A stretch of DNA of 40,671 bases. Source: Alphaproteobacteria bacterium (GTDB taxonomy: Bacteria; Pseudomonadota; Alphaproteobacteria; UBA8366; GCA-2717185). The stretch lies in the NCBI GenBank assembly GCA_028822585.1, contig JAPKDL010000017.1:1-40671 (forward strand). The letters run 5' to 3'. Under the pieces are notes generated by a model. It was not told the origin of the DNA and did no database searches. It was given only the letters and a program-made list of their open reading frames with translations. The translations under genes were made by a program, and so were the position numbers. Every line of letters begins with the position of its first letter. Positions within the stretch are counted from its first letter, which is position 1. Of the stretch, positions 20,436-27,218 are shown in pieces.

Positions 20436-20650
20436 GAAGTCATCCTCCGTTTGAATCAGTATACAAGGTGGGCGTTAAGACCATCACCGGTCAAGCCCCG
20501 AACTTCGGATAATTACGAACACCCCGCATTTCCCTAAATACCCCCTTTTTTGGTGGTTTTTTATTTTCTTGTGACCACCGTCACAGACGCGGGCGCATCG
20601 TTTTGGCATTATGGCTTCACCTACATTCGCCAAGGCTCAAAGCGCCGGTG
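20436..20650 (+). other. divergent leader region, T-rich
   Basis: Spacer between the M20 start and the riboswitch. It holds a T-rich stretch (about 20545-20570), a CRP-like palindrome and presumably the promoter of the riboswitch transcript. No coding frame is evident. Confidence 0.5.
20570..20585. promoter_or_regulatory. CRP/FNR-type palindrome
   Basis: TGTGACCACCGTCACA is a perfect 6+6 inverted repeat fitting the TGTGA-N6-TCACA pattern of cAMP-CRP sites. It lies 66 bp before the riboswitch, a plausible position for activation of that transcript. No CRP gene is in the window, so binding is inferred from the match only. Confidence 0.5.
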
Positions 20651-20747
20651 TTCTACGAAATGGCAAACCATTGGAAACGACGGTACGCAAAGCCACCGGC
20701 CGCAAGGCCTCGACGAAGAGGTTAGGTAGCGGGGCTCCCGAATAGAA
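20651..20747 (+). promoter_or_regulatory. cyclic di-GMP-I riboswitch (GEMM)
   Basis: The core matches class I c-di-GMP riboswitch RNA: TGGCAAACC, a P2 hairpin with a GAAA tetraloop, GGTACGCAAAGCCACCGG, and GGTAGCGGGGCTCCCGA. Aligned with the Vibrio Vc2 RNA, the ligand-contact bases are kept: G at 20663 (G20), A at 20690 (A47) and C at 20738 (C92). G rather than A at the first position favours c-di-GMP over cGAMP. TTCTA (20651-20655) can pair with TAGAA (20743-20747) as P1. The 3' strand of P1 overlaps the AGAAGG that would serve as ribosome site for the ATG at 20759, so ligand binding may lower translation; that direction is inference. The gene directly downstream is broken. Confidence 0.9.
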
Positions 20748-20758
20748 GGTAAACAATT

Positions 20759-21208
20759 ATGTCATCTGCGACATCCCCAATTGAGTCCTTGATCATCAAT
20801 ACCGACCATCCGAAATCACCGGCATCTTTGGCGTCGGCGCCACCGATGCGGACAATCGTCTTTTCCTCCCAGAAGGGTGGATCAGGCAGAACCACCTGAT
20901 GCGGTCAGTCATCTATTCAAGCCAAACTGACGGGTTTGGCCCCGTCGCGCTGATCAACACTGACTCCCAAAGTCAGCCTGTCAGATTGGTGGAACGCCCA
21001 CACTGCAGACACGCCTGAACTCAACTCAACGCACAATACCGGAACCATATTGGATTCGTACCAGCGCACAATCCAGACGACAACTCACCGTCCAACTACT
21101 AAAAAATAAATTTGCGCGTTTGATAATCTAACCAAACAGTAGAACCGGACGTATCAAAGCATCTTGTCTGAAGCGATTTTCGATTACCTCGCCAATAACG
21201 TCACATAG
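20759..21208 (+). pseudogene. ParA-family ATPase, broken
   Basis: From ATG 20759 the frame encodes 46 residues ending MRTIVFSSQKGGSGRTT, the deviant Walker A motif of ParA/MinD-type ATPases (KGGSGKTT), with Arg for the usual Lys. A TGA at 20897-20899 stops it. Family sequence goes on in shifted frames: QAKLTG, then FGPVALINTDSQ (Walker A' region), then LSDWWNAHTADTP, which is typical of this ParA group. A tail resembling the ParA C-terminus (TVEPDVSKHL, SEAIFDYLANNVT) ends at a TAG at 21206-21208. The total is about 450 bp against an expected 650 or so, so there is also an internal deletion. It lies 11 bp after the riboswitch and was evidently its target. Confidence 0.85.
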
Positions 21209-21240
21209 CATGATTGCGGAATTTCGAGGGTGGGCTTAAA

Positions 21241-21834
21241 ATGGCCGCCAACTTAAAAATCTGGATCGTAATGGACACCGCCGCTCAACGTATCGTTCAA
21301 TCGTTCGCCAAACCCGGCGAACGATTGATCTGGTATGGGCAACCCACACGCGCCGCCGCCGCCGCCGCCAATTATTTGCAATCGCTGATCGGCCTGGCGT
21401 TTCTCGCCATCTCGGGTTTATTGATTATTGTCCCTGACGAAACCTCGCCGGAAACGCCAACAGGTTTGATTTTACTGGGACTGCCGTTCCTGGCGGTAGG
21501 GCTCTGGATGGCCACCCGCACGCTGCGCGACTATTTAATGGCTGAATATACTTTCTATGGCGTGACCGACCAACGCATCCTAATCGGGCGAACCTGGCCA
21601 ACAAGCACTGTCAAATCATACGGTCCGGACGACATTGACGACATCACGACGACGGAAAACGCCGACGGATCTGGCGACGTTCAATTCAAGAAGTATTATT
21701 TCGGCGCGGTGCGCAACGCCAACGCCATTCCCGAACGAATTGGATTTTGGGGCGTGCCGGACGCGCATGGCGTTTCACAATATATTATTCCGTTGAAAAA
21801 ACAGGCCGCCCCGCGTCTCCCTTTTTCCCGATAG
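21241..21834 (+). CDS. PH-domain-like two-helix membrane protein
   Basis: About 197 residues from ATG 21241, with GAGG a little upstream. Two hydrophobic segments (about residues 40-60 and 75-95, LIGLAFLAISGLLIIV and LILLGLPFLAVGLWMA) are followed by a soluble beta-rich part with EYTFYGVTDQRILIGR, typical of bacterial PH-like (bPH2, YdbT/YvbH-type) proteins. It begins PGERLIWYGQP, a common lead-in for this group. Function is unknown; members sit in the inner membrane. It lies 32 bp after the ParA remnant and may be transcribed from the riboswitch leader. An alternative ATG at 21271 would also keep the domain. Confidence 0.75.
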   Translation: MAANLKIWIVMDTAAQRIVQSFAKPGERLIWYGQPTRAAAAAANYLQSLIGLAFLAISGLLIIVPDETSPETPTGLILLGLPFLAVGLWMATRTLRDYLMAEYTFYGVTDQRILIGRTWPTSTVKSYGPDDIDDITTTENADGSGDVQFKKYYFGAVRNANAIPERIGFWGVPDAHGVSQYIIPLKKQAAPRLPFSR

Positions 21835-26581: not shown

Positions 26582-26767
26582 ATGGCCCCGCCCCCTTCAT
26601 CCGGGCAAAACGATATGCTTACTATCTGTTTGGTCGGTTTCGCACAGTTGCCGGCACACTTTTGTCATATTGCACTGGGGCTTTCATTTCCGCTGTTGCG
26701 GGACGAATTCAGCGTTAGTTATACTGCTCTTGGATTGGTCATTACGTTATTTTACGGCGTCTCGGGT
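26582..26767 (+). pseudogene. MFS transporter N-terminal fragment
   Basis: Encodes an N-terminal MFS-like piece: CLVGFAQLPAHFCHIALGL, then PLLRDEFSVSYTALGLVITL, FYGVSG. This corresponds to helices 1-2 of a major-facilitator permease. The remaining ten helices are missing. The frame then runs without a stop into an unrelated DapA-family fragment at 26768. Confidence 0.7.
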
Positions 26768-27218
26768 ATGAGCCCAGAGCTTTGCATCGAGCTTGCTACA
26801 TTGCCTAATGTTGTAGCCATAAAATACAGCTTGCCGCGGGAGATGCACAAATCACTAACAAAATTGGCCGGTGACACGTTAATCGTATCAACCACCTCCG
26901 AGGAGGAATGGCTTGACAACATCACCGAGCTTAACTGGCAACTCTAATCTTTGCTCATCACCGCCTTATTAACTACAGACCGCCAATGACCGCAGAATGC
27001 ATGAGTATACTCACGCGGCGTTCACCGGAGATCATGACAAAGCCTACGCAATACAGAAAATTCTGGAACCGGTGCGCCAAGCTCTAAAATCCACACGGCC
27101 GAAAGGAAAACCACAAGCCCATCAAAAATATTGGTAAGAATTCTTAGGCTAAATGGGAGGCCCGGTGCGCAGACCCATGTTACAATTGACGGAGCAGGAA
27201 AAGGCGACGGCGGGATAA
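26768..27218 (+). pseudogene. DapA-family (DHDPS/aldolase) C-terminal remnant
   Basis: The sequence reads PELCIELATLPNVVAIKYS, then PREMHKSLTKLAGD and SEEEWLDNITELNWQ, the C-terminal half of a dihydrodipicolinate synthase/N-acetylneuraminate lyase family protein. It stops at 26947. A frame change near 26945 then gives LCSSPPY, LQTANDRRMHEYTHAAFTGD, VRQALKSTRPKGKPQAHQKY and GGPVRRPMLQLTEQEK. These are interrupted by TAA at 26970, 27135 and 27150 and ended by TAA at 27216-27218. The N-terminal half with the active-site Tyr and Lys is gone, replaced by an MFS fragment. The gene is dead. DapA-type aldolases often accompany TRAP operons, so it may once have belonged with one of the flanking systems. 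Confidence 0.85.

Follow-up and report, generated by a model that had tools for sequence, protein, structure and literature searches.

A class I c-di-GMP riboswitch aptamer upstream of a dead parA-partner operon, probable relic of a dismantled regulon in an alphaproteobacterial genome

The window, a 40,671-nucleotide stretch of DNA from an alphaproteobacterial draft genome (assembly GCA_028822585.1, contig JAPKDL010000017.1), carries a class I c-di-GMP riboswitch aptamer whose direct target, the gene of a ParA-type ATPase, is dead. This aptamer has very probably been orphaned recently and is best read as the relic of a c-di-GMP riboswitch regulon that was dismantled in this lineage. An inherited riboswitch would once have set the expression of a two-gene operon, consisting of parA and a partner gene, by controlling translation initiation at the adjoining parA ribosome-binding site; the operon was then destroyed by stops and frameshifts, together with a deletion that removed about 1 kb from the two genes, so that the aptamer was orphaned and has begun to erode. 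Of the enzymes of c-di-GMP synthesis and breakdown, about one GGDEF protein and one EAL protein are still intact. The orphan reading is preferred because parA died recently, and because decay also extends to the other aptamers of the genome and to the majority of its c-di-GMP enzymes.

The aptamer and the remains of its operon

The only Rfam hit that cmscan gave in the window was to c-di-GMP-I (GEMM-I, RF01051); this hit is full length, spans 20652-20742 (+), and scores 62.3 bits (E 5.5e-10, gathering score of the family 35 bits), bearing out the class assignment made in an initial annotation of this DNA. With a covariance model built during the analysis, the same element scored 84.1 bits. Both invariant blocks of the core (GGCAAAC and ACGCAAAG) are present, as is CCGAA at the 3' end, and G20663, A20690, and C20738, which we take to be the counterparts of the ligand-contact bases G20, A47, and C92 of Vc2, are all unchanged, so that on this presumed mapping the three contact bases are kept, as had been claimed. 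Across the family alignment, 97.4% of stem cells are paired, including the P1b and P2/P3 stems, and double changes occur at 8 pairs, versus 3.8 after shuffling. The element is thus a true aptamer of the class I c-di-GMP type, which would be expected to bind c-di-GMP: it shares with RF01051 a full-length, above-threshold match, the invariant core, paired stems, and a position just 5' of a start codon. It differs from that class in that its target gene is dead, one stem pair is lost, and a ParA target is, so far as found, undescribed in the open literature.

The description of the aptamer as well preserved holds with some qualification. Relative to the orthologous aptamer of the congener G020, with which it is identical at 76 of 91 positions, one P1b pair is broken (A20670.C20681, alignment column pair 19/30, A-U in G020), the RF01051 score is lower (62.3 versus 69.3 bits), and the predicted fold is weaker by 4.6 kcal/mol (-28.4 versus -33.0 kcal/mol). 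Immediately 3' of the aptamer, at 20744-20749 (+), lies the ribosome-binding site of the dead parA, which sequence comparison and alignment with G020 indicate to be weakened (AGAAGG, compared with AGGAGG in the intact orthologue). The parA start codon is at 20759, 16 nt past the end of the model match and about 11 nt past the aptamer end drawn in the initial annotation, in agreement with the spacing given there.

From this ATG, the ParF-like parA pseudogene extends to about 21015 (+) and retains only the 5' third of the gene. A tblastn-type search aligned it at 62% identity with residues 3-91 of the intact orthologue (E 1.9e-31); a TGA breaks the frame in the Walker A region, and a second in-frame TGA and frameshifts follow. 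The C-terminal two thirds are deleted, the remnant no longer offers an open frame with the Walker A and downstream motifs of a working ParA-family ATPase, and intact copies were seen only in relatives. Locus alignment with G020 (locus L021) showed that the deletion, about 1 kb, runs from parA into the next gene, leaving a scar at 21016-21074 (+) that joins the two. What remains of the second gene, an RHH/ParG-like partner that is intact in G020, is the C-terminal end at about 21075-21189 (+), found by local alignment to L021:3805-3920 and interrupted by stops and a frameshift. The breakage of parA by TGA, frameshifts, and deletion had been recognized previously; the dead partner gene had been missed, as had the loss of an upstream gene and the collapse, described below, that the riboswitch regulon has undergone across the genome. 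The lost upstream gene encodes a TPR protein (131 aa, L021:1839-2234 in G020), and its absence leaves a shortened leader region at 20436-20651. Stop-codon recoding was considered for the broken genes and rejected, since TGA, TAG, and TAA all occur in them, together with frameshifts and the deletion. Rescue by another intact parA was likewise rejected, as a search of the genome found no further copy of this ParA.

The intact arrangement was found, with shared synteny, on contig C74 of G020 (a draft with 7% estimated contamination), where the order is M20 peptidase, TPR gene, aptamer, parA (306 aa), partner (173 aa), PH/PuhB-like gene, and purC; the same aptamer lies there directly 5' of an intact parA, as the comparison of related genomes proposed in the initial annotation was meant to reveal. 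At codon positions 1, 2, and 3, the parA remnant has diverged by 0.146, 0.108, and 0.388, close to the values for the living PH gene (0.215, 0.113, and 0.457), which argues that parA was under selection during most of the period after the split and that the gene died recently. The good state of the aptamer therefore says little about its present use.

The next intact gene is, as annotated initially, that of a PH-type membrane protein (PH/PuhB-like, 21241-21834, +; ORF 21214-21834, likely start 21271 by homology). It has a weak NCBIfam PuhB match, below the cut-off, and is 77% identical to its G020 orthologue. The initial annotation left two options, that the switch now serves this gene or that the aptamer is orphaned, and the evidence fits the second best and gives little support to the first. 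For the PH gene to have taken over the switch through a long leader is improbable, although it had the distal place in the operon from the outset: in G020 it is the third gene, starts 65 bp past the partner gene, and is probably co-transcribed with parA and its partner, and in the window it is intact, with neither an intrinsic terminator on the + strand nor a better sigma-70 promoter found before it. Its dN/dS of 0.15 also speaks for selection, but covers the whole branch and not the time since parA died. Against such a takeover, about 500 nt of stop-filled, untranslated RNA would lie between the aptamer and the gene, a switch that acts on translation at the ribosome-binding site of parA could not reach the gene directly, the third gene of aptamer-parA loci differs outside the genus, and the aptamer stem is decaying. 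Some residual function of the aptamer is possible, given its kept core, its good score, and selection on the PH gene, although the relic has presumably lost its function.

Decay of riboswitch loci and c-di-GMP genes elsewhere in the genome

A search with RF01051 returned only two aptamers in this genome. The second (C167:84236, 71.1 bits) lies 5' of a small membrane-protein gene cut by a TAG, and the related loci in G019 and G020 are intact and stand within tandem units of the form aptamer, Flp pilin, aptamer, small membrane protein. In two such units (L024 on G020:C648 and L026 on G019:C416), the Flp pilin gene and the gene of the membrane protein of about 60 aa have separate aptamers. An eroded orthologue of the tandem unit was located on C167 at about 101.1-102.0 kb, where the first aptamer scores 43.8 bits and has changes in both core blocks, the second is mostly deleted, and the Flp and membrane-protein genes are both dead. 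All c-di-GMP-I riboswitch loci found in the genome have dead targets, at differing stages of decay.

The enzymes of c-di-GMP turnover are in a similar state. Of eight GGDEF matches, seven are fragments or stop-bearing and a single one, which has a GGEEF motif, is full length, versus 7 and 9 matches, nearly all whole, in the relatives G019 and G020; one of two EAL proteins is intact and the other has two TAG codons, versus 6-10 in relatives. Since a GGEEF-type cyclase and an EAL protein each survive intact, the organism may retain some c-di-GMP production. A single chemoreceptor fragment remains in the genome. As a control, all 33 ABC permease domains (BPD_transp_1) were stop-free and close to full length (Fisher p 3.6e-7 for GGDEF versus permease intactness), and the Tad ATPase and one Flp pilin, both on C181, are intact and have no aptamer. 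Measured against one control family, gene loss appears concentrated on c-di-GMP functions; the genome is a draft of 265 contigs, most probably a MAG, and missing genes may sit in its gaps.

Two further alternatives were weighed. The pseudogenes might reflect decay of the whole genome, as in a young symbiont, with nothing specific to c-di-GMP; other broken genes were indeed seen (at 26582-26947 of the window, and the chemoreceptor fragment), but the intact permeases, Tad ATPase, and Flp pilin, set against seven of eight GGDEF genes damaged, make this reading rather unlikely, as gauged against a single control family. The ORF at 26582-26947 resembles a transporter fragment fused to a dihydrodipicolinate synthase-like fragment and is probably a pseudogene. 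Sequencing or assembly error as the source of the stops and frameshifts, with parA in fact intact, is conceivable in a draft of so many contigs, and yet extremely improbable: the lesions are of several independent kinds (two TGA, indels, and a deletion over two genes), many other c-di-GMP genes are broken in the same genome while every permease is intact, and there is no second parA copy.

The aptamer-ParA pairing in Alphaproteobacteria

The initial annotation had supposed that a c-di-GMP switch before a ParA-type ATPase is not a common pairing, and this did not hold. Eighty named relatives of the ParA were scanned with a covariance model built from 16 aptamers, and an aptamer lay directly before parA in 12 of the 80 loci, at E 2e-20 or better; a scan by regular expression missed seven of these 12. 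The partner gene follows parA directly in 11 of the 12, the twelfth (L107) stopping at the edge of its stretch, and the partners mostly have an N-terminal motif of the LTAGLLARKGEA type. In two of the 12 loci, a second aptamer was found about 0.6 kb farther upstream (L069:3300-3381 and L086:3353-3441), before the gene of a small two-TM protein of about 110 aa and just 5' of the aptamer-parA unit.

In a class-wide scan, RF01051 was present in 33 of 385 alphaproteobacterial genomes, and ParA followed the aptamer in 10 of the 26 loci newly fetched from it, three of the 10 appearing to be on the same contigs as named loci. ParA is the commonest aptamer target seen in this class-wide sample. Overall, about 20 distinct genomes of the class (G020 and about 19 others) have the aptamer directly 5' of ParA, and the idea that the pairing is a novelty confined to the window locus was rejected, as it recurs in relatives and in the class-wide sample. 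Neither result named in the initial annotation as refuting, a covariance score under the threshold or an aptamer that at homologous loci never stands before ParA, was obtained. When 107 ParAs were placed on a tree, the aptamer label took 6 changes versus a shuffled mean of 21, a contrast that near-copies inflate and that comes with modest support for single deep branches. This clustering fits an old association of aptamer and ParA, with losses. In the other genera of the window's own family, Rfam searches found no aptamer in the genomes, and the ParAs of these genera fall into separate clades.

At most aptamer-parA loci, an AGGAG-type ribosome-binding site lies at the 3' end of the aptamer or shortly past it, a position from which the c-di-GMP riboswitch would probably act on translation initiation of parA. 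Searches of the open literature for the c-di-GMP-I riboswitch with ParA, Flp pilin, or partitioning found no relevant paper, and we provisionally regard the pairing of c-di-GMP-I with ParA as undescribed.

Several other loci were noted during these scans. In order-mates of the window (L029-L040), ParA has a downstream partner of the LTGSLLARKGAA type and often a third gene resembling a PAS-type protein, with no aptamer, and at several of these loci a second ParA lies close by. Within the order, but in a different family (L004-L007 and L009-L015), aptamers mostly precede the gene of a protein of about 160-250 aa with an N-terminal hydrophobic segment, and the one such protein that was tested had no Pfam match.

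The ParA module and its precedents

The intact ATPase matched NCBIfam ParA_partition at 154 bits, below the cut-off of 180, and its nearest solved structure is that of ParF from TP228 (PDB 4dzz). Pfam RHH matches to the partner protein were sub-threshold; its N-terminal tail has a conserved K15-G16, and its AlphaFold model, of low overall confidence (mean pLDDT 55), is disordered over the first two thirds and ends in a confident helix-helix region. ParG, the partner of ParF, combines an RHH domain with an N-terminal tail whose arginine-finger-like motif stimulates ParF (PMC7308502). As a reasoned working label, the intact module is taken to be a chromosomal ParF/ParG-like positioning or partition module whose expression would be set by c-di-GMP. 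It resembles ParF/ParG of plasmid TP228 in its ParF-like ATPase, in the small partner adjoining downstream, and in the long disordered tail with a conserved KG motif and the C-terminal helix-helix region of that partner; it differs in being chromosomal and a single locus, in its presumed riboswitch control within the aptamer clade, in the weakly supported RHH fold of the partner, and in having no known cargo or centromere.

The riboswitch class is already known, and Bordetella pertussis provides an earlier example of a riboswitch with a broken target: there, a Mn2+ riboswitch precedes the non-functional exporter gene BP3410 and was shown experimentally still to work (PMC8546581). Both cases have a riboswitch kept before a broken target in a decaying lineage; the window aptamer is of another class, is itself eroding, and is part of a wider loss. 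No report of a riboswitch regulon decaying as a whole was found in the open literature. The genome offers a snapshot of the death of such a regulon, target genes first and aptamers later, with several stages visible at once, and the window relic points to a recurrent, seemingly undescribed link between c-di-GMP and ParA-type positioning in about 20 genomes across many alphaproteobacterial lineages. More tentatively, and with somewhat less than even confidence, an ancient undescribed module may exist in Alphaproteobacteria, with the level of a ParF/ParG-like positioning machine set by c-di-GMP by way of a class I riboswitch, within a surface-attachment regulon that includes riboswitch-controlled Flp pilins; the window's lineage would have dismantled both this regulon and its c-di-GMP network, leaving the aptamers as fossils. 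Inspection by eye of further aptamer targets (L162, L169, L172, L158, and L159) suggested transglutaminase-like (LapG-type) proteins, a possible PilZ protein, and a CheY-like regulator.
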